Source: Parvularcula dongshanensis
GTDB taxonomy: Bacteria > Pseudomonadota > Alphaproteobacteria > Caulobacterales > Parvularculaceae
Reading direction: 5' to 3'
Length of the DNA: 64,000 nucleotides
Assembly (NCBI RefSeq): GCF_014199615.1
Contig: NZ_JACHOB010000007.1
Span: 62,001-126,000, forward strand
The position numbers were made by a program, and so were the translations under genes. Every line of letters begins with the position of its first letter. Position 1 is the stretch's first letter. The notes under the pieces are model-generated. The model was not told the DNA's origin, ran no database searches, and worked only from the letters and a program-made list of their open reading frames with translations. Below are positions 3,148 to 50,090 of this stretch, piece by piece.

Positions 3148-3771
3148 ATGGATCCCATCGATAGCAAACCCAAACGCGACCATAACACTTCTAGACCGTT
3201 AGCATTCCCCGCCTCGTTGACGCTCAAAGTCGATGCCGATGGTCGCCTGCCGTTGCCGAAGGGCGTTCTCATGCTGACCAGTCTCCAGCCCGGCGGCGAG
3301 GTCGCGATCAGTAGCGGCCCAGCCGGCACGCTTTTCGTCCGGCCGCTCCCAACGGACCATCCGGCGGGTAGTGGGTCGCACTCGATCGCGCACAACCTGA
3401 GCGAAGCCAGCGCAGATCGGCTCCATGCCGTCCTTGCTGAATGCGGAGGCGTCGGCTCTCTGCGGACGCAGCAGGCCGCCGACATCCTTGGGACCCATCC
3501 GGAAGAGCTCGCGCAGACTGCCGGCCTGTTGGCGATCGAGAGCACCTCGACAGAGACAGGCGAGCAGAACCGCCTCGCCAGGCTTCTGCGGATCATCGTA
3601 GCAGTTGCGACGTGGTACGGCGACGAGACGTTGTTGCCTGCGTACGCGTGGTATCGGACCGAGCGGCTCGAGGGGTTTCGAAACAAAACTGCGGCTGAGT
3701 TGGTCCGCACGGGCTACGGCCATGCGGTCATCGACTATCTGGACGGCGTCGCGGACGGCGGACGCGGATGA
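3148..3771 (+). CDS. Antitoxin-like fusion: AbrB-type N-terminus plus MbcA/ParS (DUF2384) C-terminus
   Basis: The protein has 207 residues. Residues 23-66 (LTLKVDADGRLPLPKGV onward) resemble a swapped-hairpin AbrB/MazE DNA-binding fold. The last 55 residues, with WYGDETLLPAYAWYRTE and a terminal AELVRTGYG..VIDYL pattern, match the toxin-binding domain of Xre/MbcA/ParS antitoxins. In that family the antitoxin neutralises a downstream RES-domain NAD-degrading toxin. No RES gene follows here. A tiny ORF overlapping the stop ends after nine codons, and an insertion sequence begins 59 bp downstream. A RES toxin does exist at 35.8 kb, but it has its own antitoxin. AbrB in place of the usual Xre helix-turn-helix is unusual. 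The domain calls are made by eye. Confidence 0.6.
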   Translation: MDPIDSKPKRDHNTSRPLAFPASLTLKVDADGRLPLPKGVLMLTSLQPGGEVAISSGPAGTLFVRPLPTDHPAGSGSHSIAHNLSEASADRLHAVLAECGGVGSLRTQQAADILGTHPEELAQTAGLLAIESTSTETGEQNRLARLLRIIVAVATWYGDETLLPAYAWYRTERLEGFRNKTAAELVRTGYGHAVIDYLDGVADGGRG

Positions 3772-3830
3772 TGCGAGCAAACCGCTCGCAGCAGTAGCTT
3801 CGTCGCAAGTCAGATGCTCCGTAAGCGAAC

Positions 3831-3861
3831 TGTTTGCGACAAGCTGCATTGTGCGACCGAG
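3831..3861 (+). repeat. Left terminal inverted repeat of the ISNCY element
   Basis: Contains GCGACAAGCTGCATTGTGCGAC. Read outward-in, it aligns with the reverse complement of 5544-5574 at 23 of 31 positions. Confidence 0.65.
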
Positions 3862-3862
3862 C

Positions 3863-5461
3863 TCAACGTCCTGGCCTACCGAAGCTTTTGTGCTTCGCTC
3901 GGCGCTCCGCCGACCGAGCCAGTCTAGCCTCTCGCGGCCGCTGTTTCGCCGTAGGCGGAGCTGGCTCGAGCGGTTCCAACAGCACGTTCTCGGACGCAGC
4001 GGCGTCTGGGGTCGTCTGAGCTGGCTTGCTGCGGGCGTTTAGGATTTGCCGAGCCTGCTCGACCGCCGAAAGCGAAGGCTCAGACGGCGCTGCTGTTGCC
4101 GCTGCCTCGGCTTCACGCTGCCGCTTCGCCTGTTTCAACTTGAGGATCGAGGTCCCGTTGGCGTGACCCTGCCTCCGACCGTTGCTCACGTAACCATTCT
4201 TCGCCGACGGGCGATAGGTCGCCGGTGCTGGCATGTTGTCCCGCTGCGCCTTGATCCGTTCGACGGCGGCGGTGAGATGCTTGTTCTCGGTGATGGACGT
4301 ATGAAGCGTCCGCCCCTGGCGTTTATCGAACTGCTTGAAGGGCAACGACGCGCCCTTCCATCGGACCTCGATCCGCCCGTCTGCGTAGTCGTGGACGTCG
4401 ACCCACTTACCAGGCAGACCATCGCTGACCTCGTTGCGCTCTAGGATCACCAGTGTGTTGTCGTGGCGGAGGGTAATGTCCTTGGTCACCCGCCGTTGGG
4501 ACTTTACGCAGAGAACCTCGCGGAGCCGGTACGGGGGTTGGGCGAGCGGCCGATGCAGGTCGTCGGACTTCGCAGGCGGCTTCGCAAAGCGGTCGTTGTA
4601 GGCTGTGACGAACGTCTTCGCGTAAGCGTTGCCTGCCTGCATGTCGTCGATGCCTTCCAGGCGAAGCAGCTTGACGAGCCGGTCCTGCAAAGTCCGGTTC
4701 GCGCGTTCGACACGCCCCTTCGCCTGCGGGGTGTCCGCACAGATGATCTCGATCGACAGCTCCGACATGGCCCGCCCGAACTGCGTCATCCCATGACCCG
4801 ACTTCTGGCTCTTCCGGCCCAGACGGAAGACCGTATGCTTGTCCGAGTAGAACGCGAGCGGGCGACCGTGCGTCGTCAGATACGCCTCGGTCGCGTCGAA
4901 GTAGGACGCCGTGCTCTCGGACTCGCAGAAGTGCAGGTGCAGCAGGCGGCTGGTCGCGTCGTCGACGAAGACGATCAGGCTGCAGGACGGTCCCCGATCC
5001 TCGAACCACCGATGGGGCGAACCGTCGATCTGGACGAGCTCGCCCACGCGCTCACGGCGCAAGCGGGGCTGGTGGATGCGACGCCGAGCCTTGCGCGTCG
5101 TCCACATGCCTTCTGCGATCATCCACTTGCGCAGCGTCTCCTTGCTGACCGTGACGCCGTCGCGATCGGCCAGCATCTCGGCCGCGAGCGTCGGACCGAA
5201 GTCATCGTACTGCCGGCGAACCAGGCCGAGGATGTACTCGCGCTTGTCATCGTCGAGCTTCCGGTTGGACGGCCGACCGCGAAGGCCGTGTCCGAAGCTG
5301 GCGGCGCCGTGTGTCTTCAGCTTCGCCGCTATGCGGAAGACCGTCCGCTCCGATACGCCGAGGATTGAAGCCGCGTCCGCTGGCTTCAATCGGCCGGCCT
5401 GCATCTGCCCGATGGTCTCTATGCGTTTCAGTTCTCGTTCGCTCATGATAACCAGGCCCAT
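3863..5461 (-). CDS. ISNCY-family DDE transposase
   Basis: Catalyses transposition of the surrounding element. The N-terminus holds a helix-turn-helix (ADAASILGVSERTVFRI, about residues 29-45). The rve/RNase H core follows, with catalytic residues recognisable in QIDGSPHRW (first Asp), FYSDKHTVF (second Asp) and GRVERANRTLQ (Glu). A basic C-terminal tail of about 120 residues is Ala- and Arg-rich. I chose the ATG at 5461 because a GGGAGAG Shine-Dalgarno lies about 6 bp upstream. An in-frame ATG at 5521 would add 20 residues without a ribosome site. The frame is intact, so the element may be active. Confidence 0.9.
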   Translation of the reverse strand: MGLVIMSERELKRIETIGQMQAGRLKPADAASILGVSERTVFRIAAKLKTHGAASFGHGLRGRPSNRKLDDDKREYILGLVRRQYDDFGPTLAAEMLADRDGVTVSKETLRKWMIAEGMWTTRKARRRIHQPRLRRERVGELVQIDGSPHRWFEDRGPSCSLIVFVDDATSRLLHLHFCESESTASYFDATEAYLTTHGRPLAFYSDKHTVFRLGRKSQKSGHGMTQFGRAMSELSIEIICADTPQAKGRVERANRTLQDRLVKLLRLEGIDDMQAGNAYAKTFVTAYNDRFAKPPAKSDDLHRPLAQPPYRLREVLCVKSQRRVTKDITLRHDNTLVILERNEVSDGLPGKWVDVHDYADGRIEVRWKGASLPFKQFDKRQGRTLHTSITENKHLTAAVERIKAQRDNMPAPATYRPSAKNGYVSNGRRQGHANGTSILKLKQAKRQREAEAAATAAPSEPSLSAVEQARQILNARSKPAQTTPDAAASENVLLEPLEPAPPTAKQRPREARLARSAERRAKHKSFGRPGR

Positions 5462-38366: not shown

Positions 38367-38500
38367 TGAAACCTCCTCTCGTTGGGACGAGGGAAAGGTG
38401 GGGAAGGGCCGCGACCGCGGCACTAGGGCGAAGGCCGCTTTGGTAATAGTCTTACGCTATCGGCCATCGTACTATCGCCTGGCACTTGCTAATGAACGGC

Positions 38501-39421
38501 ATGCCCTCCGACCCGACGATCCGGCAGCTGCGATACCTGACTGCGCTTGCCTCCTGCCTTAGCTTTCGCAAAGCCGCTGAGCGGTGCGGAATCAGTCAGC
38601 CTTCCCTGTCCGCTCAGCTGAAAGCGCTTGAGACGTCTCTGGGTGTCAGGTTGGCGGAGAGGGGCTCAGGTTCTGTCGTCCTGACGCCGGTCGGTCGTGA
38701 GGTCGCCGCGACCGCGATCGATGTTCTCGACCGGGTCGACGCCTTGGTCGGGCTCGCCTCGCGTGGACCGCTCACGGGAGTGCTTCGTCTCGGCGTCAAG
38801 CCCACGCTTGGCCCCTACCTCATGCCACACGTGGTGAGGCGACTGCACGCGACCCATCCCGACCTTCGCCTCTTCGTCCGCGAAGCGCCGCCGATCGATT
38901 TGGAGCGCGAGTTGATCGAGGGAGTGCACGACGTCGTTCTCGCCCAGTTGCCGCTCGCCTCGGCGGAGGTCGAGAGCGTCCGGCTCTTTCGAGAACCGCT
39001 CCTCCTCGCGGTCGCGAGCGACCATCCGCTCGCGCGGCAGGAGCGTTTCGACCCAGGCGACCTGAAGGGCTTGGACGTCTTGACGCTTAGCCCCCGCTAT
39101 CACCTACACGAGCAGGTGCTGCGCCTCTGCGAGGAGAACGAGGCCACCCTTCGACGCGACTACGAGGGCACCAGCCTCGACGCCCTCCGGCAGATGGTCG
39201 GGATGGGGTTGGGCGTGACCTTCCTGCCAGCGCTCTACGTCGCCTCGGAAGTCCGAGGGGAGGGGGACGTTGCCGTGCTCAAGCCCGCCAGGGCCGGCCT
39301 TCACCGGTCGATCGGTCTGGGATGGCGCCGTGCGTCGGGCAACCACGAGGCCTACGAGGCATTGGGGGATGCCGTCACAGCGGTCGCGGCGGAGCTTCCG
39401 CACCTGTCGCTGGAGCGCTGA
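38501..39421 (+). CDS. LysR-family regulator, OxyR-like without the peroxidatic cysteine
   Basis: About 306 residues; ATG 38501 gives the usual PSDPTIRQLRYL start, with ATG 38492 as an alternative. The N-terminal winged helix is typical (RKAAERCGISQPSLSAQLKALE). The effector domain matches OxyR most closely (PTLGPYLMPHVVRRL, then GTSLDALRQMVGMGLGVTFLPALYV). At the redox site OxyR has GHCLRDQ with Cys199 and a second Cys208. Here the first Cys is replaced by Tyr200 (RYHLHEQ), while Cys210 remains. A peroxide disulfide switch is therefore unlikely. The target genes are unknown; the export operon 0.8 kb downstream is a candidate. Confidence 0.88.
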   Translation: MPSDPTIRQLRYLTALASCLSFRKAAERCGISQPSLSAQLKALETSLGVRLAERGSGSVVLTPVGREVAATAIDVLDRVDALVGLASRGPLTGVLRLGVKPTLGPYLMPHVVRRLHATHPDLRLFVREAPPIDLERELIEGVHDVVLAQLPLASAEVESVRLFREPLLLAVASDHPLARQERFDPGDLKGLDVLTLSPRYHLHEQVLRLCEENEATLRRDYEGTSLDALRQMVGMGLGVTFLPALYVASEVRGEGDVAVLKPARAGLHRSIGLGWRRASGNHEAYEALGDAVTAVAAELPHLSLER

Positions 39422-39488: not shown

Positions 39489-39803
39489 TCAGCCGTCGTT
39501 CGACGGATCCTCTTGTGCTGCGAACTCTACAGATTCGGCATCAACGGGTTGTTGTGCACGAGCGTAGCGATGCGGGTGATGCTGCGGGCCTCGCGGCGCG
39601 GCGCGTTCGACGGAGCGGGTCCGTTCGGTAACTTCAGCCTTCGTCGGCTGTGGCGACGACATGACGTGCCGCGGCGAAGAACGGGCGCCGGTGTCGGTCT
39701 GCGCCAAGGCAGGCGATAGGGTCAGCGGAAGCGCGACGGAAGTAGCGGCGAGTAGCGTCGCTAGCGGGCGACGCGCATCTGGTGAGTTGGATAGCAATGT
39801 CAT
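39489..39803 (-). CDS. Small secreted protein of unknown function
   Basis: 104 residues from the ATG at 39803, which has GAGG 5 bp upstream; an ATG at 39821 is also in frame. A convincing signal peptide (RRPLATLLAATSVALPLTLSPALAQ) is followed by a polar tail rich in Arg, Pro, Gln and His, without Cys. No family is recognised. It lies opposite to and upstream of the export operon. Whether it is a substrate is unknown. Confidence 0.45.
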   Translation of the reverse strand: MTLLSNSPDARRPLATLLAATSVALPLTLSPALAQTDTGARSSPRHVMSSPQPTKAEVTERTRSVERAAPRGPQHHPHRYARAQQPVDAESVEFAAQEDPSNDG

Positions 39804-40194
39804 GAAGACCTCGTTTCCCATTGCTCGAAGACGATGGTCAGGACATGGTCGTAAACTCAGAGACGACTAGACCGATAGGAACTTCCTATAACCCGTTGAG
39901 GTGCTTCGGCAGCGCAGGCTCGTTTGGCGGAATCTCGCCGGTGAATCGCGATTGCGGAACGACCGCTCTAGGAGGGTCGATAGCGGCGATGCCAGCAGTC
40001 GATAGGAATAGGCTATCAGGGTTGGCAAGCAGCCCGAACCACCTAGGTGGCAGCCGACGAAGCGTGTCGACTCCATCAACAACTACTCCAGCGAGCGGGC
40101 AGGTTCCGGTCCGCAGCGAGAGGCTCGACTATGACCCAAATTCCCGCCGGTCCGCTCGCTCCGGCGCCGGCTGCTCGCCCCGCGATAGCCTAGC
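39804..40194 (+). other. Divergent intergenic region before the export operon
   Basis: 390 bp, AT-richer than the flanks on the left; no gene or strong repeat recognised. It probably carries promoters for the small secreted protein (minus) and the export operon (plus). Confidence 0.35.
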
Positions 40195-41937
40195 ATGGTG
40201 CAGCACGAGATCCCGAGTGCCCGTCGCGTTCTAGAGCTCGTCTGGCAAACGCTGAGCCCGGAGCGCCGTTACCTTTGGCTGGCGGTGATCTACGGCGTCG
40301 GCATCAGCTTGCTCTCGCTGGCAACGCCAATCGCGGTGCAGGTCCTCATTAACACCGTGGCCTACACGGGCCTGACCACACCGCTCGCCGTGCTGACGAT
40401 CGCGCTCTTCGGCCTGCTTCTGACCTGGGCACTGCTGAACGCTCTTCGCGTTCACCTCGTCGAGATCTTCGCGCGCCGGTTCTACGCACGCTGCGTGGCT
40501 GCGATCGCCTTGCGCACCGTCTACGCGAAGAACCCGTTCTTCGCCGACGAGGGCCAGACCGCACTCTTCAACCGCTACTTCGACATCCTCGGCGTACAGA
40601 AAGCCGTTCCGGTTCTCGTCATCGGCGGCTTCACCGTGCTGCTTCAAGCGTCGGTCGGGTTCGTGCTCGTCTCGTTCTACCACCCCTACTTCTTCGTGTT
40701 CGTGGCCGTGATCGTCGCGGCGATCTGGTTGATCTGGCTAGTCTGGGGCGCCTCTGCGATCAGGACGGCGGTCGCGTTGAGCGTCTCGAAGCATCGCACG
40801 GCGGCGTGGATCGAGGGGCTTGGCGGGTCGAACGGCTACTTCAAGTCCGACCGGCACGTGACCTTCGCCCTGCATCGTACCGAGGAGGTCACGGCTGCCT
40901 ACGTTGACGCTCACAAGCGCCACTTTCGGCGTCACTTCGCTCAGACCGTAAGCTTCCTCGTGCTGTACGCCGCGGCGAATGCGACGTTGCTTGGCCTAGG
41001 TGGTTGGCTGGTCATCCAGGGACAGCTGACGCTGGGGCAACTCGTCGCCGCCGAGCTCGTCCTGTCGGCGGCCTTCTACGGCGTCGCGCAGCTTGGGACT
41101 TACCTGAACTACTTCTACGACCTCTGCGCCGCCTGCGAGGAGTTGTCCTTGTTCGAGGCCGTCGATGAGGAGGACTTCGTCAGTACGCTGCCTCCCTCCC
41201 GGACGAGCGCCGAGCTGGTCTTCGACAGCGTGCGCGGCGATGCACGGGGCCTGCCGGCCTTACTCGACTTCGTCATTCCCTCCGGAACGACCGTGCAGGC
41301 CGCGGCCAGCCTCCACGGAACTCAGCGCCTCTTCACCAACCTCCTCAAGCGTTTCGAGGAGCCGCGCGGCGGAACGCTGACACTGGGCGGAGACGACATT
41401 ACAGCGACGGAGGTGCACGTTCTTCGTCGGGAGATCGTCGTCCTGGACCGGCCGAGCATGGTCGAGATGACCATTCGCCAGTACCTCGCGCTCTCGCGCG
41501 ACGGCGTTTCCTCATCGGACATGCTGAACGCGATCCGCGACGTCGGCCTCGCAGGCGTGATCGAGAGCCTCGAGCGCGGCCTCGACACGTCCCTCAGCTC
41601 GACGGGGTGGCCGCTGGCGGTCAGCGAGATCATGCGACTGAAGCTAGCCGCCGCCATCCTCTCCAAGCCGCTGATCCTCATCTTGAACCAGCTCTACGAC
41701 ACCGTTCCCGATCACATGCTGCGTCGCGCCATCGAGGCTTTAAAGCAGGCGTGCGGCGGCACCGTTGTCGTCTTCACCAACCGAGCGCACGATCTCGGAG
41801 CGGACAGCTACCTCTACCTCGAGCCCGAGCGGCAACGCCTCTACACCGACTACGCCGCCTTCGAGGAAGCGCAGCTCGGTCAGGAAGCCTTGACTGGGTC
41901 CCAACGAACCGGCGCCAACTCCTTCGAAACGGTCTGA
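40195..41937 (+). CDS. ABC exporter-like protein with fully degenerate ATPase domain
   Basis: 580 residues: an ABC type 1 exporter membrane domain (six helices, residues 25-310) joined to a nucleotide-binding-domain fold (residues 338-560). The fold is still recognisable by order and spacing, but every catalytic motif is lost. Walker A reads AAASLHGTQR (369-378) instead of GxxGxGKS. The Q-loop has Asp (VVLDRPS). The signature is PLAVSEIMR instead of LSGGQ. Walker B reads LILILNQLYD, with Asp to Asn and Glu to Gln. The H-loop His is Asn (FTNRA). As a homodimer it could not hydrolyse ATP. It is first of a tight operon with an HlyD adaptor (3 bp gap) and a TolC-like channel. The reading frame is intact, so the loss looks selected rather than decayed. 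Confidence 0.88.
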   Translation: MVQHEIPSARRVLELVWQTLSPERRYLWLAVIYGVGISLLSLATPIAVQVLINTVAYTGLTTPLAVLTIALFGLLLTWALLNALRVHLVEIFARRFYARCVAAIALRTVYAKNPFFADEGQTALFNRYFDILGVQKAVPVLVIGGFTVLLQASVGFVLVSFYHPYFFVFVAVIVAAIWLIWLVWGASAIRTAVALSVSKHRTAAWIEGLGGSNGYFKSDRHVTFALHRTEEVTAAYVDAHKRHFRRHFAQTVSFLVLYAAANATLLGLGGWLVIQGQLTLGQLVAAELVLSAAFYGVAQLGTYLNYFYDLCAACEELSLFEAVDEEDFVSTLPPSRTSAELVFDSVRGDARGLPALLDFVIPSGTTVQAAASLHGTQRLFTNLLKRFEEPRGGTLTLGGDDITATEVHVLRREIVVLDRPSMVEMTIRQYLALSRDGVSSSDMLNAIRDVGLAGVIESLERGLDTSLSSTGWPLAVSEIMRLKLAAAILSKPLILILNQLYDTVPDHMLRRAIEALKQACGGTVVVFTNRAHDLGADSYLYLEPERQRLYTDYAAFEEAQLGQEALTGSQRTGANSFETV

Positions 41938-41940
41938 TCC

Positions 41941-42954
41941 ATGCCATTCCGTGACCAACATATCGGCCACTTCCAGACGCTCGCCTCCATACGGCCTCCG
42001 CGCCTCATCGTCGCCGTTGCGCTGATGCTGACGCTCGCCGTCGCGATGTTAGTGCTGCTCCTCACCTTCACCCCCTGGGTGCAGACGACCAGCGGTCCAG
42101 GTGTCGTGTCGACGCGAGACCCGAACGACCGCGTGCAGGAGATCAACGCCCTTGTCTCCGGTCGTATCGACCGCTGGTACGTTCGTGATGGCGACCGGGT
42201 GGCGGCGGGTGATCCGATCGTGCGGATCGCGGACAACGATCCGCAACTGATCGAGCGGCTCTCGCGCGAACGCGAGCAGCTGACGGCCGGCCGCGATGCC
42301 GCCCGGGCGGCGCTGCGCACCGCGCAGATCGATCTCGAACGTACGCGGGGGCTCTTCGAGGATGGCCTCGCCGCACGGCGGGACTTCGAAGCGGCGGCGA
42401 TCCGGGTCGAGGACATGCGTGCGAGCCTCGCTGCTGCTGAGGCATCGATCGAGAGGCAGGAGACGGAGCTGTCGCGGCAGTCCGTTCAGACTGTGAGGGC
42501 GCCTCGGGAGGGCACCATCCTCCGGATAAACGGTGGCGCCTCGGCAACCTACGTCTCCGCCGGCGATCCCGTTGCCATGTTCCAACCCGAAGGCGCCGAA
42601 CGCGTGGTCGAGCTCTACGTCGACGGACGCGACGTGGCGCTGGTGGCACCGGGACGTCGGGTCATGCTGGAGTTCGAAGGATGGCCCGCGGTCCAGTTCT
42701 CCGGTTGGCCATCAGTTGCCGTGGGGACCTTCCCAGGACGCGTGCTGAGCATCGACCCAACAGCGCAGCCTGACGGACGCTTCCGTGTCCTCGTAGCTGA
42801 AGGCGACGAGACGCCTTGGCCGGGACCAGAGTTCGTGCGCTTCGGTGCCTCCGCACGCGGATGGGTGCTGCTAGACGAGGTAAGGCTCGGCTACGAGCTG
42901 TGGCGTCAGCTGAACAACTTCCCCCCGCAATACTCGACAGGCACCACGTCATGA
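41941..42954 (+). CDS. HlyD-family membrane fusion protein
   Basis: 337 residues. One N-terminal transmembrane helix (residues 22-44) anchors a periplasmic adaptor: a lipoyl half (VQEINALVSGRIDRWYVRDGDRVAAGDPIVRI), a coiled-coil hairpin (residues 98-180, ERLSREREQLTAGRDAAR onward), the second lipoyl half (VRAPREGTILRI) and a beta-barrel. It would connect the inner-membrane partner upstream with the outer-membrane channel downstream. It starts 3 bp after the ABC gene and overlaps the channel gene by 4 bp (ATGA). Confidence 0.92.
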   Translation: MPFRDQHIGHFQTLASIRPPRLIVAVALMLTLAVAMLVLLLTFTPWVQTTSGPGVVSTRDPNDRVQEINALVSGRIDRWYVRDGDRVAAGDPIVRIADNDPQLIERLSREREQLTAGRDAARAALRTAQIDLERTRGLFEDGLAARRDFEAAAIRVEDMRASLAAAEASIERQETELSRQSVQTVRAPREGTILRINGGASATYVSAGDPVAMFQPEGAERVVELYVDGRDVALVAPGRRVMLEFEGWPAVQFSGWPSVAVGTFPGRVLSIDPTAQPDGRFRVLVAEGDETPWPGPEFVRFGASARGWVLLDEVRLGYELWRQLNNFPPQYSTGTTS

Positions 42955-44366
42955 AGGGGATCGTAGCGGCCCTTCTGGTCCTCGCCCTCGCCGTGTCACG
43001 TGCCTACGCACAGGCCGAGGCCCCCCTCTACCCCGAAGACGTAGCCATCTCAGCTGCGCGGCACTACCCAGCCGTCCTGGCCGCCATCGCCGAGCGTAGG
43101 GGCGCGGCGGGCGAGCTCTTATCTGCAAGGGGAGCGTTCGACGTAGTCGTCACGGCGGAAGGACGGGCGCGCACGGCTGGCTACTACAGCGGCGACTTCG
43201 GCCAGGTGAAGGTGGAGCGGCCGCTCGGTGGCTTCGGCGCGAAGGCCTACGCGAGCTACCGGCTCTCCGACGGCACGTTCCCGATCTACGAGGACGAGGC
43301 TTACACGAACAAGAGCGGCGAGGCGAAGATCGGTGTGCTCTTCTCGCTGTTGCGCGACCGCACGATAGACGATCGGCGGGCCGGCATCGCAGAGGCACGG
43401 CTAGGCCTCCAGCAAGCGGAACTCGAGGTGCGCCTTACCAGGCTCGCGGTTCAGCGGGAGGCGCTGCTGGCGTACCACAGATGGGTCGCGCGTGGGCGGG
43501 AACTCAGTGTCTACGAGGACCTTTTGGAGCTAGCCGAAGAGCGGATCGAAGGTCTGGAAGAGGAGGTGCGCCGGGGGGCTCGCGCCGCGATATTCCTGAC
43601 CGAGAACGCGCAGAACCTCACGCGTCGACGGGAACTGGCCGCGACGGCGCGACGCGACCTCGCCCTCGCGGCGAACGACCTTGCTCTGTACCTGCGGACG
43701 GAAGAGGGGCGCATGCTGACGCCCGACAGGTCGCAGATTCCCAAGAGGCTGCCGGAGGTCGCCCCGGCTGCCACACCGGACGTCGCGGCGATTACGGGCG
43801 AACGGCCCGAGTTGGCGCTACTGAACCTCGCCGCCGAGCGTGCTAGCCTCGCGCTTGCCCTCGCGGAGAACGAACTCCGTCCGCGTCTCGACACCGTGTT
43901 CGAGGTAGCACAGGACTTCGGACCCGTTGCGGAGGGCGGCTTGAGCCGCGACGAGGGCGAGATCATCGCCGGTCTGCGCTTCGAGCTTCCTCTCGGTCGG
44001 CGAGGCGCACGCGGAAGAGTGGCTGCGGCGGACGCGCAGCGCGATCGAACTAACCAAGAGCTCCGCCTGGCGCGTGATCGAATCCTCGCCGAACTGACCG
44101 AGGTCGTGCTCGACCTCGAAACGTCAGGAGAGCTGCTAGAGCTTGCGATGCAGGAAGTAAGGCAGGCTGAAACGATGCGAGCCGCGGAACAACGACGCTT
44201 CGCGGCCGGCGCGTCCGACTTCTTCTTACTGAACTTGCGAGAAGAAGCGCTCGCGGACGCTCGCGTACGCCTCGCGCGCGCGAAGCTGGCTCGGTCGGCT
44301 TCGCGCGTCACATACGACGCGGCCGTCCTCGATGAGGAAGCCCTTGGCCTGACGGCAGCGCAGTAG
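42951..44366 (+). CDS. TolC-family outer-membrane efflux protein
   Basis: 471 residues from the ATG overlapping the HlyD stop. The signal peptide has cleavage near AYAQAEA. Two homologous halves of long amphipathic helices (LGLQQAELEVRLTRLAVQREALLAYH and ERASLALALAENELRPRLD) plus beta strands (DVVVTAEGRARTAGYYSG, IIAGLRFELPLGRRGARGR) fit the trimeric channel-tunnel fold. Third gene of the export operon. Confidence 0.9.
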   Translation: MKGIVAALLVLALAVSRAYAQAEAPLYPEDVAISAARHYPAVLAAIAERRGAAGELLSARGAFDVVVTAEGRARTAGYYSGDFGQVKVERPLGGFGAKAYASYRLSDGTFPIYEDEAYTNKSGEAKIGVLFSLLRDRTIDDRRAGIAEARLGLQQAELEVRLTRLAVQREALLAYHRWVARGRELSVYEDLLELAEERIEGLEEEVRRGARAAIFLTENAQNLTRRRELAATARRDLALAANDLALYLRTEEGRMLTPDRSQIPKRLPEVAPAATPDVAAITGERPELALLNLAAERASLALALAENELRPRLDTVFEVAQDFGPVAEGGLSRDEGEIIAGLRFELPLGRRGARGRVAAADAQRDRTNQELRLARDRILAELTEVVLDLETSGELLELAMQEVRQAETMRAAEQRRFAAGASDFFLLNLREEALADARVRLARAKLARSASRVTYDAAVLDEEALGLTAAQ

Positions 44367-45931: not shown

Positions 45932-46954
45932 TCAGACGACGCCTTTCCCGACCTGTACCATCTGACTCTGCGCGTGCGCACCGAACTCAACGTCGACGTC
46001 GAGGAACGTCCCGATCGTCCTGACGTTCGTGTGGAAGTGGGAGGATAGCACGGTGGCGGTGAAGCGTCCTCCAGCGAGCAGTGCCAGCGGCAGAAGCAGC
46101 TGGTCGGCGAGATGCTCTGACACGGTACCATCTCCGGAAAGATAGGCGCGCGCCTCGTCCGCCGCGCGGCGGGCGACGGTCTCTGCCTTCACGCCGTAGC
46201 GGCCGAGCTCGCTGAAGACCTCCGTATGCGCCTCATGCTCGGCGTATACCTGAACGACATTGCCCGGGCCCGGGCCGTCGCAGGTGACGTGCCGCACGGC
46301 GTCTTCGCTTAGCGCCAGCGCGTCGCGAAGGACGGCGATCTCTCGCTCGCAAATGTCGCTGCGCAGGTTCGCCCGCAGCGCCTCCGCGGTCACACTCACG
46401 ATGGCGCCCCGCTCGCACAGATCGAGTGGGGCGGGTGCATCGAGCGGCGCGATGGTCGCCGTCCACTCGCCGCCGGCGGCGGGGTAGAAGCCGCGGCGGA
46501 CGAGGGAGGTGTCGACTCTTGCTCCTACCGCGCGAAGCGGCGGCAGGAAGGCGTGCGTGACGAAGTCTAGCGTCGGCGCGCTCATGGTGTGCGTGCCGCC
46601 GCACAGGCGGAGCGTGCTCGGCTCGTCGGCGGCGAGCAGGATGGGCAGCAAGGTTTGAAAGACGAGCGTCGTCGCGCCGGCGGTGCCGACGTCGAAGGCG
46701 AACTCGCCGCCGCGCGGCTCACCCGGCGTGAAGGCGAGTTCCGTCGAGCCAAGCTGCCCGCCGACGGCCTTGCCGCCGCAAACGGCAGCGGCCGCATGGA
46801 CGCAGGTCAGGTGCTGCCGCATCAGTCCCGGCTTCTTTCGTCCGGAACGGATATTCTTGATGCGGAACGCCTGCCCCGTGCAGGCGGACAGGCTCAGCGC
46901 GCTGCGTAGAACCTGTCCGCCGCCTTCGCCCTCGCTACCGTCGATGGTGATCAT
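45932..46954 (-). CDS. rtcA: RNA 3'-terminal phosphate cyclase
   Basis: 340 residues. Converts RNA 3'-phosphate ends to 2',3'-cyclic phosphates using ATP. The N-terminus IDGSEGEGGGQVLRSALSLSACTG is the RtcA signature. GTAGATTLVFQTLLPILL, the insert region, and the adenylated His in SEHLADQLLLPLAL near residue 292 are all present. It is second gene of rtcBA, 58 bp after rtcB, with a hairpin in the gap. Regulation would be by the divergent RtcR. Confidence 0.95.
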   Translation of the reverse strand: MITIDGSEGEGGGQVLRSALSLSACTGQAFRIKNIRSGRKKPGLMRQHLTCVHAAAAVCGGKAVGGQLGSTELAFTPGEPRGGEFAFDVGTAGATTLVFQTLLPILLAADEPSTLRLCGGTHTMSAPTLDFVTHAFLPPLRAVGARVDTSLVRRGFYPAAGGEWTATIAPLDAPAPLDLCERGAIVSVTAEALRANLRSDICEREIAVLRDALALSEDAVRHVTCDGPGPGNVVQVYAEHEAHTEVFSELGRYGVKAETVARRAADEARAYLSGDGTVSEHLADQLLLPLALLAGGRFTATVLSSHFHTNVRTIGTFLDVDVEFGAHAQSQMVQVGKGVV

Positions 46955-46982
46955 CTTCGCCCCCTTGCGGCCGTCGTAGGAA

Positions 46983-47006
46983 CGCAGCCCGATAAAGAGG
47001 GCTGCG
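46983..47006 (-). other. Hairpin between rtcB and rtcA
   Basis: CGCAGCCC and GGGCTGCG, 8-bp perfect arms around an 8-nt AT-rich loop. No U-tract. It may stabilise or attenuate the rtcBA message. Confidence 0.45.
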
Positions 47007-47012
47007 TCAGTA

Positions 47013-48230
<1,218 letters not shown>

Positions 48231-48399
48231 CCTGGTCTCCTTCGGGTGGGATGGGACCGAGGCGACATCACCGACGCCCCGATCCCGTCGGTGGCGCGGG
48301 GCCGGATCGCCCCGCCTTGTCCCGTAACCGCCGACTAATGAAGGATGACCGACCGCTCGGGGCGACGAAACCGGAAAGTGCAATTCTAGCTAATATACT

Positions 48400-48416
48400 G
48401 TTATCATGTTGATAAC
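48400..48416. promoter_or_regulatory. Palindrome between rtcB and rtcR
   Basis: GTTATCA-TGT-TGATAAC, perfect 7-bp arms, in the middle of a 110-bp AT-rich island between divergent genes. Candidate RtcR binding site. I could not find a convincing sigma-54 -24/-12 element facing rtcB: TTGCA is present, but the GG element is not. Confidence 0.45.
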
Positions 48417-48500
48417 GAGCAATCGACCGAGTCCATTCCGAACGCTATGCTATCTTTGAAGATCGTCTCTTATCTTATATTATAACCAGCGCCCCAACCC

Positions 48501-50090
48501 ATGAAGCGACACGTCCTCATCTCCGCCATCGGCACGACGCTCGACGTCGGGAAGGGCCCCGATCGCTGGTCGCGCTGGCGTCCGACCGTGTCGTTGCATC
48601 AGCACGAGGACCTGCTGATCGAGCGGACGATCCTTCTCTACGGCCGACGCGCCACGACGCTCTCGAAGCTCCTCGCCGACGACATCGCCCTCGTCTCGCC
48701 GGAGACCGAGGTCGAGCGCGTGCTCTTCGACCCGCGCGACCCCTGGGACTTCGAGGAGGTGTACGAGGCGCTCTCCGCTTTCGCACGGGAGAGGGACTTC
48801 GACCCGGCCGCCGACGACACGCTGATCCACCTCACCACGGGCACGCACGTTTTCCAGATCTGTGCCTTCCTGCTGGCGGAGAGCCGGCACATCCCTGGCA
48901 AGCTGATCCAGTCCAGCCCGCCCGCGAAGAAGGAGGCCCTGCCGGGGAACTACTCGATCATCGACCTCGACCTCTCCCGGTACGACCGGCTCGCCCAGCG
49001 CTTCGAGTCGGAGCGGGAGGAGGGGACGAGCTTCCTCCGTGGCGGAATCGAGACGCGGAACGCGGCCTACGGCGCGATGATCGACCGGATGGAGAAGGTC
49101 GCCGTTCGCTCGACCGCGCCGCTTCTGCTGACCGGACCCACGGGCGCGGGGAAGTCCGTGCTGGCGCGCCGCCTGTACGAGCTGAAGCGGGCGCGGCACG
49201 TCGTCGAAGGCGAGTTCGTGCGGCTGAACTGCGCGACGCTTCGCGGCGAGGAGACGGTCCCGCAACTCTTCGGGCAGAAGCGCGGCTGGCACGGCGCCGC
49301 CTCCGAGCGCCGCGGGCTGTTGCGCGCCGCGGACAAAGGCGTCCTATTCCTCGACGAGATCGAGCAGCTCGGCCCGGACGACCAGGCGTTGCTGCTCGAC
49401 GCGGTGGAGACGGGACGCTTTTACCCGCTGGGGGCGGACCGACCGAGCGAGAGCCGCTTCCAGCTGATCGCGGGTACCTCCGAGAATTTGGCTCGCCTCG
49501 TGGCGGACGGCAGTTTTCGCGCCGACCTCTACGCACGTCTCAACCTCTGGACCTTCCGCCTGCCCGGCCTCGCCGAGCGGCGGGAAGACATCGAGGCTAA
49601 CTTGGAGCTGGAGCTGACCAAGGCGACCAGAGAGGCGGGCGGGAAGATCGCGCTCGCCGCCGACGCCCGCGCGGCCTACTTGCGCTTTGCGACCGACCCT
49701 GCCGCGCCGTGGAGCGGCAACTTTCGCGACCTCGCCGCCTCCGCCAGCCGCATGGCGACGCTGGCCGAGCGCGGCCGCGTCACCAAAGGCCTGGTCGAGG
49801 AGGAGTGCGCCCTCCTCAGGCGGCAATGGGCGGGGACGGCCCGCGACGAGGACGCAGACGTCATTGCAGCCGCGATAGGCGATCCGGAGGCGGCATCGCG
49901 GCTCGATCGGTTCGACCTGGTCCAACTCGCTGACGTGATCCGCGTCTGCCAGACGTCACGCACGCTCTCCGAAGCAGGACGAGTCTTGTTCGCGGCCTCT
50001 CGCAAGAAGAAGGCAAGCGCGAACGACGCGGACCGGTTGAAGAAGTACCTCGCTCGGTTCGGTCTGGAGTTCGGCGAACTCTCGGTCTGA
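48501..50090 (+). CDS. rtcR: RtcR, CARF-like/AAA+ regulator of rtcBA with altered GAFTGA loop
   Basis: 529 residues. The N-terminal ligand-sensing domain (residues 1-180) is the CARF-like domain of RtcR, with the HLTTGTHVFQIC strand-loop. The AAA+ domain has Walker A GPTGAGKS (212-219), Walker B VLFLDEIE (281-288) and the RtcR-typical RADLYARLNLWTFRLPGLAERREDIE. The C-terminus ASANDADRLKKYLARFGLEF is the RtcR helix-turn-helix end. In sigma-54 activators the loop between these motifs is GAFTGA. Here the site reads GQKRGWHGAASERR, lacking the Phe-Thr and one residue. Contact with sigma-54 is therefore doubtful. Divergent from rtcBA. Confidence 0.9.
   Translation: MKRHVLISAIGTTLDVGKGPDRWSRWRPTVSLHQHEDLLIERTILLYGRRATTLSKLLADDIALVSPETEVERVLFDPRDPWDFEEVYEALSAFARERDFDPAADDTLIHLTTGTHVFQICAFLLAESRHIPGKLIQSSPPAKKEALPGNYSIIDLDLSRYDRLAQRFESEREEGTSFLRGGIETRNAAYGAMIDRMEKVAVRSTAPLLLTGPTGAGKSVLARRLYELKRARHVVEGEFVRLNCATLRGEETVPQLFGQKRGWHGAASERRGLLRAADKGVLFLDEIEQLGPDDQALLLDAVETGRFYPLGADRPSESRFQLIAGTSENLARLVADGSFRADLYARLNLWTFRLPGLAERREDIEANLELELTKATREAGGKIALAADARAAYLRFATDPAAPWSGNFRDLAASASRMATLAERGRVTKGLVEEECALLRRQWAGTARDEDADVIAAAIGDPEAASRLDRFDLVQLADVIRVCQTSRTLSEAGRVLFAASRKKKASANDADRLKKYLARFGLEFGELSV

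Follow-up and report, generated by a model that had tools for sequence, protein, structure and literature searches.

ABC-type membrane domains that work without ATP have otherwise been found in LmrA, full-length or artificially cut, and in the NBD-less SbmA-like proteins. The SbmA-like transporters (SLiPTs) are related to the ABC membrane domain and driven by protons; they have lost the NBD and the coupling helices, act in import, and carry a ladder of glutamates (PMC13316013). For LmrA of Lactococcus lactis, the published work describes ethidium-proton symport by the protein without its NBD, with abrogation of the delta-pH dependence by E314A in TM6, as well as a working ATPase in the full-length protein, where deletion of the Walker A lysine inhibited ion transport too (PMC2704374).

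NBDs with replaced catalytic residues occur in TM287/288, TmrAB, TAP, and Pdr5. To our knowledge, degenerate-site heterodimeric ABC exporters of this kind keep one complete site, and LmrA has no HlyD/TolC operon. HlyB/LapB-type exporters of type I secretion and related peptide exporters have a membrane domain followed by an NBD and work with HlyD and TolC partners.

The window analyzed here, a stretch of DNA of 64,000 nucleotides, encodes a pseudo-ABC exporter half (Table 1) that resembles each of these systems in part. The family to which it belongs shares domain order and partners with the HlyB/LapB-type and peptide exporters; unlike them, it has replaced ATPase motifs and a glutamate in TM6. 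It resembles SLiPTs such as SbmA and BacA in its ABC-exporter-related membrane domain and in an independence from ATP that is shown for the SLiPTs and would apply here by inference, and it differs from them in having an NBD, partly kept loop residues, and one invariant glutamate. In the window protein itself, the NBD and coupling helices have not been lost as in SLiPTs, and the membrane domain has no glutamate ladder. The likeness to LmrA is one of homodimeric ABC exporter type and of a glutamate in TM6, functional in LmrA (E314) and a candidate here (E287), the two being matched by helix only, whereas the ATPase of LmrA works and the motifs of the window protein are replaced; by analogy, the Walker A result in full-length LmrA would count against a simple parallel with the pseudo-ABC family. 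A search of the open-access literature, with subscription papers and preprints outside its scope, found no paper describing this family.

The window protein and its replaced ATPase motifs

The frame opens with ATG and runs for 580 residues on the plus strand with no internal stop, so that the stops which the first-pass annotation had named as a sign of simple decay are absent from 40195-41937. A helical N-terminal portion precedes a C-terminal ABC NBD, giving the order of an ABC-type membrane domain and then an ABC NBD fold. Pfam ABC_tran aligns over model positions 28-132 of 137 with 18.2 bits against a cut-off of 25, and the gene is one of 31 ABC_tran places in its own genome while lying below that cut-off. 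The Pfam ABC membrane model gave no match to the window protein itself but recognized 26 of the 27 sequences in alignment A2. In NCBIfam, the nearest models are of the HlyB, bacteriocin-exporter, and PrtD types, with scores far under their cut-offs: TIGR01846 (HlyB) spans residues 24-528 (E 6.6e-22), a likeness to ABC exporters over about the full length, and the T1SS model score of 77.6 bits does not reach the curated cut-off of 725.55 bits. Among solved structures, the family profile scored highest with ABCB1 (169 bits), but over part 250-532 only, and HlyB gave the best whole-chain match (130 bits, residues 16-548).

A predicted model of the NBD only, built from three sequences, is of moderate confidence (pLDDT 70, pTM 0.71); fold searches with it returned ABC exporter NBDs, with a best PDB E of 3e-14 and TM scores of 0.72-0.82 by query length among the 50 matches listed. 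The full-length model has low confidence (pLDDT 57) and still returned ABC exporters in Foldseek; because of that low confidence the direction of E287 is not readable from it and the position of this residue in space was left unused. The claim that frame and fold order are kept agrees with the open reading frame and with the predicted ABC fold of the NBD, and the non-ABC fold that would have spoken against the first-pass annotation did not appear in the structure check it called for.

Table 1. Positions within the window of the pseudo-ABC gene, its altered motifs, and the associated genes.
Feature	Position	Strand	Basis or remark
Pseudo-ABC exporter half, 580 aa	40195..41937	+	ORF, family scans, alignment A2, NBD model and fold search
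Membrane domain, about residues 1-328; degenerate NBD, about residues 338-560			Domains of the 40195-41937 protein
E287 codon, glutamate in TM6	41053..41055	+	Glu in 82/82 family sequences
Former Walker A, residues 368-382	41296..41340	+	K to Q377, S/T to R378
Former Q-loop, residues 414-424	41434..41466	+	Q to D418, then R419-P420
Former LSGGQ signature, residues 471-481, GWPLAVSEIMR	41605..41637	+	Alignment with own-genome exporters
Former Walker B end, residues 494-499	41674..41691	+	D to N498, E to Q499
Former H-loop, residues 525-530	41767..41784	+	H to N529
HlyD-type periplasmic adaptor, 337 aa	41941..42954	+	Pfam HlyD_3 and HlyD_D23
TolC-type outer membrane channel, 471 aa	42951..44366	+	Pfam OEP, E 6e-28 (run on 42954-44363)
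OxyR-like LysR regulator, likely cassette-linked	38486..39421	+	NCBIfam best match; recurrence near cassette

The reference columns of five exporters from the same genome hold K, S/T, Q, SGG, D, E, and H. At these places the window protein has Q377, R378, D418, LAVSE (residues 474-478, set against LSGGQ by alignment with the same-genome exporters), N498/Q499, and N529, bearing out the earlier statement that all five ATPase motifs are replaced; none of the Walker A, Q-loop, LSGGQ, Walker B, and H-loop motifs of an ATP-hydrolyzing exporter is present. Without Walker A and signature there is no ordinary ATP site, which upholds the related claim that a homodimer could not use ATP, and these residues indicate that catalysis of ATP by the protein's own NBD has almost certainly been lost. 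Chance loss is excluded because relatives have the same losses (82 sequences counted).

An old family with shared losses

The window protein was set beside 81 relatives, drawn from genomes and plasmids of Pseudomonadota and Bacteroidota. Counting its own genome each time, close relatives occur in 9 of 61 near genomes and in at least 15 of 299 genomes of the order, at least 3 of 385 of the class, and at least 11 of 398 of the phylum; another class has them in at least 8 of 229 genomes, including the already known G991 and G684. One further order yielded matches at E 1e-120 or better in at least 58 of 140 genomes, or at least 59 at a limit of 1e-45, and the corresponding figures for the order of G991 are at least 6 and at least 19 of 200, where the weaker matches carry ordinary residues at all 15 fetched loci. 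The large genome searches scored no more than the top few candidates in each genome, which makes their prevalence figures lower bounds. Named records with relatives comprise one Gammaproteobacteria assembly, one Sphingomonadales assembly, 15 Sphingomonadales plasmids (12 records fetched), and seven plasmid records of Persicobacter, Aureibacter, and Riemerella (Bacteroidota; four fetched), and 0 of 73 candidate stretches on viral contigs is a relative. In Novosphingobium aromaticivorans DSM 12444, the homologue is SARO_RS19820 on plasmid pNL2. One of three relatives, L003, was dropped because it scores 19.7 bits with the family profile and matches at 27% over a span of 147 residues, and L121, L142, and L143 were omitted as repeats of L054, L056, and L062. 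The motif and E287 counts do not include the truncated L070 or 29 further matches in the 140-genome order, which had no locus.

For reference we used 24 ordinary exporters, 20 of them matches to the HlyB model and four from the window's own genome; the 20 were chosen as frames with Walker A and SGG, and all 20 fetched loci gave one, so the set is a non-random sample. The trees and the pairwise comparisons are based on 44 rows of the family, with L029, L034, L068, L069, L070, and 34 later-found members set aside. These trees, built by a quick method with SH-aLRT as their sole support measure, separate the family from the 24 ordinary exporters with support of 100 for the whole protein, 100 for the membrane domain, and 99 for the NBD, and the window gene groups with Sphingomonadales sequences. 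The pseudo-ABC exporter family is real, old, and widespread.

The losses are shared throughout. All 82 sequences lack the Q-loop glutamine, the glycine pair of LSGGQ, and the Asp-Glu pair of Walker B, while the Walker A lysine is kept in 11, all of them outlying members, the Walker B aspartate in 33, mainly in the order with 58 of 140 genomes, the catalytic glutamate in 6, and the H-loop histidine in 3. Within a core of 41 sequences, the Walker A lysine, first signature glycine, Walker B aspartate, and H-loop histidine are kept in none and the catalytic glutamate in three. A homologue with all motifs intact, which the first-pass annotation had held to be damaging to its reading, is thus not found among the 82; it had also asked whether the losses recur in homologues and whether these retain the operon, and both are the case (Q-loop glutamine in 0/82, HlyD adjoining in 80/83). 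Five outliers (L054, L063, L064, L065, and L122) have a near-normal Walker A, others having only the lysine, and from their residues these five might still bind nucleotide. L054 and L122 have neither the LSGGQ glycine pair nor the catalytic glutamate, with Asp-Asp in L122, and could possibly be ATP binders without ordinary catalysis. That signature and Q-loop are absent from the whole sample and Walker A from most of it suggests, as far as present states reflect past ones, that Walker A was lost later.

Comparison of the window gene with eight same-genus or same-family copies gave dN/dS of about 0.14-0.24 for the membrane domain and 0.17-0.50 for the NBD, computable in seven of the eight comparisons and with synonymous sites near saturation. 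A simple decay of an ABC exporter gene in the window's lineage would fit a protein without any catalytic motif, but it is exceedingly improbable in view of an open frame under purifying selection, like losses across 82 sequences, of which the 44 on the trees form one group, and an operon that has been kept.

The two halves of the protein are conserved in the reverse of the ordinary order. The membrane domain is the better conserved half in all 946 pairs of the 44 family members (666/666 core, 21/21 outlier, and 259/259 outlier-core pairs), whereas among the 24 ordinary exporters the NBD is the better conserved half in 275 of 276 pairs. Where two membrane domains share 40-50% identity, the NBDs average 0.29 in the family (198 pairs) versus 0.55 in ordinary exporters (13 pairs). 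For the two Persicobacter copies, whose Walker A is near-normal, identity is 92% between the membrane domains and 57% between the NBDs. Judged by these identities, constraint has shifted away from the NBD and onto the membrane domain. This pattern bears on the idea that the NBD has kept or gained another ligand (a nucleotide, a metabolite, or a protein) and serves as a regulatory sensor of the export step. Old-site residues conserved in the core (R378, D418-R419, and a G-x-P-L-S stretch) and the near-normal Walker A surviving in outlying lineages speak for such a sensor, but an NBD that is the less conserved half in every pair, together with the absence of the Walker A lysine from 41/41 core sequences, makes it quite unlikely.

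The HlyD/TolC cassette and its neighbors

The tight coupling to HlyD and TolC genes noted at first pass is evident in a 3-nt gap between the stop of the ABC gene, ending at 41937, and the HlyD ATG at 41941, and in an ATGA overlap of the TolC ATG at 42951 with the HlyD TGA at 42952-42954. An inner-membrane transporter, an adaptor, and a channel are encoded in one operon, as expected of a tripartite assembly and of an HlyB-like exporter with HlyD and TolC encoded alongside. Across all loci, HlyD directly follows the ABC gene in 80 of 83. Order and strand of ABC, HlyD, and TolC are the same in 46 of the 46 three-gene loci among 49 examined, the exceptions being L002, at a contig end, and L068 and L070, with an IS3 transposase immediately downstream; at 34 further loci, HlyD lies next to the ABC gene in all 34 and a TolC piece is present in 32. 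L068 and L070 are plasmid copies in which no HlyD or TolC gene was found, and the ABC frame of L070 is truncated. Pairwise identities of the ABC, HlyD, and TolC proteins correlate at 0.92-0.93 over 1035 pairs, and the adaptor frame measures 329-384 aa in 37 of 46 loci and 418-451 in 8, with one longer.

The gene content of this cassette also bears on the option, raised in the first-pass annotation, that the window protein is the degenerate half of a heterodimer whose catalytic ABC exporter is encoded elsewhere. Degenerate sites are common, in 21 of 29 human non-homodimeric ABC transporters (PMC7756269), the window's own genome has other full-length ABC exporters, and a generic housekeeping exporter is a conceivable partner on sequence grounds. 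Like TM287/288, TmrAB, TAP, and Pdr5, the window protein has an NBD with replaced catalytic residues; unlike them, it keeps zero complete sites, and no dedicated partner gene was seen at the 49 loci. With both Walker A and LSGGQ gone, neither composite ATP site could be completed by a partner, and pairing with a catalytic subunit is for that reason very unlikely. The cassette contains no second ABC gene at any of these loci, 6 of the 49 fetched stretches include, in scattered places, a gene whose NBD pattern is intact, the cassette is found on plasmids too, and the other six family-profile matches in the same genome reach at most 76 bits versus 912. The option of a partner elsewhere is accordingly disfavored.

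Apart from the three cassette genes, a LysR regulator recurs. The window's LysR protein has OxyR as its best NCBIfam match, below the cut-off (196.5 vs 329 bits), and 10 of 49 loci have an OxyR-like LysR gene no more than about 0.8 kb from the cassette, be it upstream, divergent, or downstream, a count that leaves out weaker LysR matches at other loci. At what we take to be the two OxyR redox cysteine positions, the ten linked proteins have a cysteine at the first in 0/10 and at the second in 6/10, the window's included. The OxyR redox cysteine pair is thus missing, and since the first cysteine is absent in all ten, the cassette LysR is probably not the usual peroxide sensor.

Only HlyD, TolC, and LysR looked like true shared cassette genes among the 25 largest neighbor clusters, the remainder being mostly overlapping frames or genes in few loci. 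An SDR oxidoreductase lies near the cassette in six loci and what is presumably a glutathione-transferase-like protein in four. Upstream of the cassette, L001 encodes two related small basic proteins (3718-4086 and 4664-5074, minus strand) with repeats such as PGKQGPF and PWIGAPGKKRRP; they are possible secreted substrates, and no other proteins of this type came up when the window and the loci collected by then were searched by pattern. In the window, a 110-aa frame with a signal-peptide-like start lies between the LysR and ABC genes (39489-39821, minus strand), and by eye 45932-50090 holds minus-strand frames resembling RtcA and RtcB together with a plus-strand frame resembling a sigma-54 activator, presumably an RNA-repair set.

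Candidate mechanism and implications

The residues of the membrane domain that stay constant give some indication of how such a protein may work. The E287 column holds no glutamate in the 24 ordinary exporters (V, L, S, M, and others), nor in the 15 nearest-scoring ordinary exporters, which have Asn or Gln in 15/15, and E287 is the sole acidic membrane-domain position identical in all (48/48). Position D130, which the alignment assigns to the first intracellular loop, holds Asp or Glu in 44/44, and Q49, Q151, R127, K199, W205, and Y308 are invariant too in the 44 sequences. Polar residues are invariant within predicted helices of the membrane domain. Intracellular-loop residues common to ordinary exporters are partly kept, for example R127 and K217. 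In the profile alignment E287 falls on a phenylalanine of ABCB1, which we take to be a drug-pocket residue of TM6, and it could bind a cationic substrate instead of a coupling ion.

Our preferred reading, to which we give a rough probability of 0.5, is an ABC-derived tripartite exporter whose own NBD does not hydrolyze ATP, which is most likely driven by an ion gradient, and in which the NBD serves as a scaffold. In this mechanism a transporter related to the HlyB and peptide-exporter kind of ABC protein would have given up ATP hydrolysis. The homodimer would move its substrate through alternating access of the membrane domain, and the kept membrane domain, adaptor, and channel, together with the TM6 carboxylate, point to such export without ATP. 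An ion gradient would be the drive, for which we see an even chance, and the TM6 residue E287 is our candidate for the site that takes up the proton or cation; a single invariant glutamate is far less than the ladder of SbmA and, on the sequences compared, would speak against ion coupling through E287.

The pseudo-NBD would act as the dimer scaffold. In ordinary NBDs, the Walker A Ser/Thr and the Q-loop Gln hold Mg2+. Residues 378 and 418, which occupy these two former ligand positions, pair a basic with an acidic side chain in 32 of the 41 members of the core (Fisher p 0.003, uncorrected for shared ancestry), and from this pairing an R378-D418 salt bridge may replace the metal and hold the empty site together.

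The retained membrane domain also weighs on a reading without active export, in which the protein anchors the adaptor and channel, or forms a gated conduit or facilitator, and the drive is a substrate gradient or another machine. A rapidly evolving NBD and a cassette kept with HlyD and TolC are compatible with such a role, but the strong conservation of the membrane domain and its invariant polar helix residues seem to exceed the needs of an anchor, and we consider it somewhat unlikely. Of the three readings offered in the first-pass annotation, then, working without ATP at the protein's own NBD fits best, whereas the catalytic partner is not favored, with no second ABC gene in the cassette at 49 loci.

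For ion-gradient-driven export with an inert NBD, a further and more tentative step, which we hold somewhat short of probable, is that the family represents a natural and widespread class of ABC-derived tripartite exporters switched from ATP hydrolysis to an ion gradient, with the NBD kept as a scaffold and the TM6 glutamate arriving with the loss of LSGGQ and before that of Walker A.

Annotations as "ABC transporter ATP-binding protein" mislead for the pseudo-ABC family. The family keeps the NBD minus its chemistry and includes lineages with Walker A and a candidate coupling residue, and in this way makes the energizing of ABC transporters testable. If the proposed switch is true, a path from primary to secondary transport would have been caught in steps.
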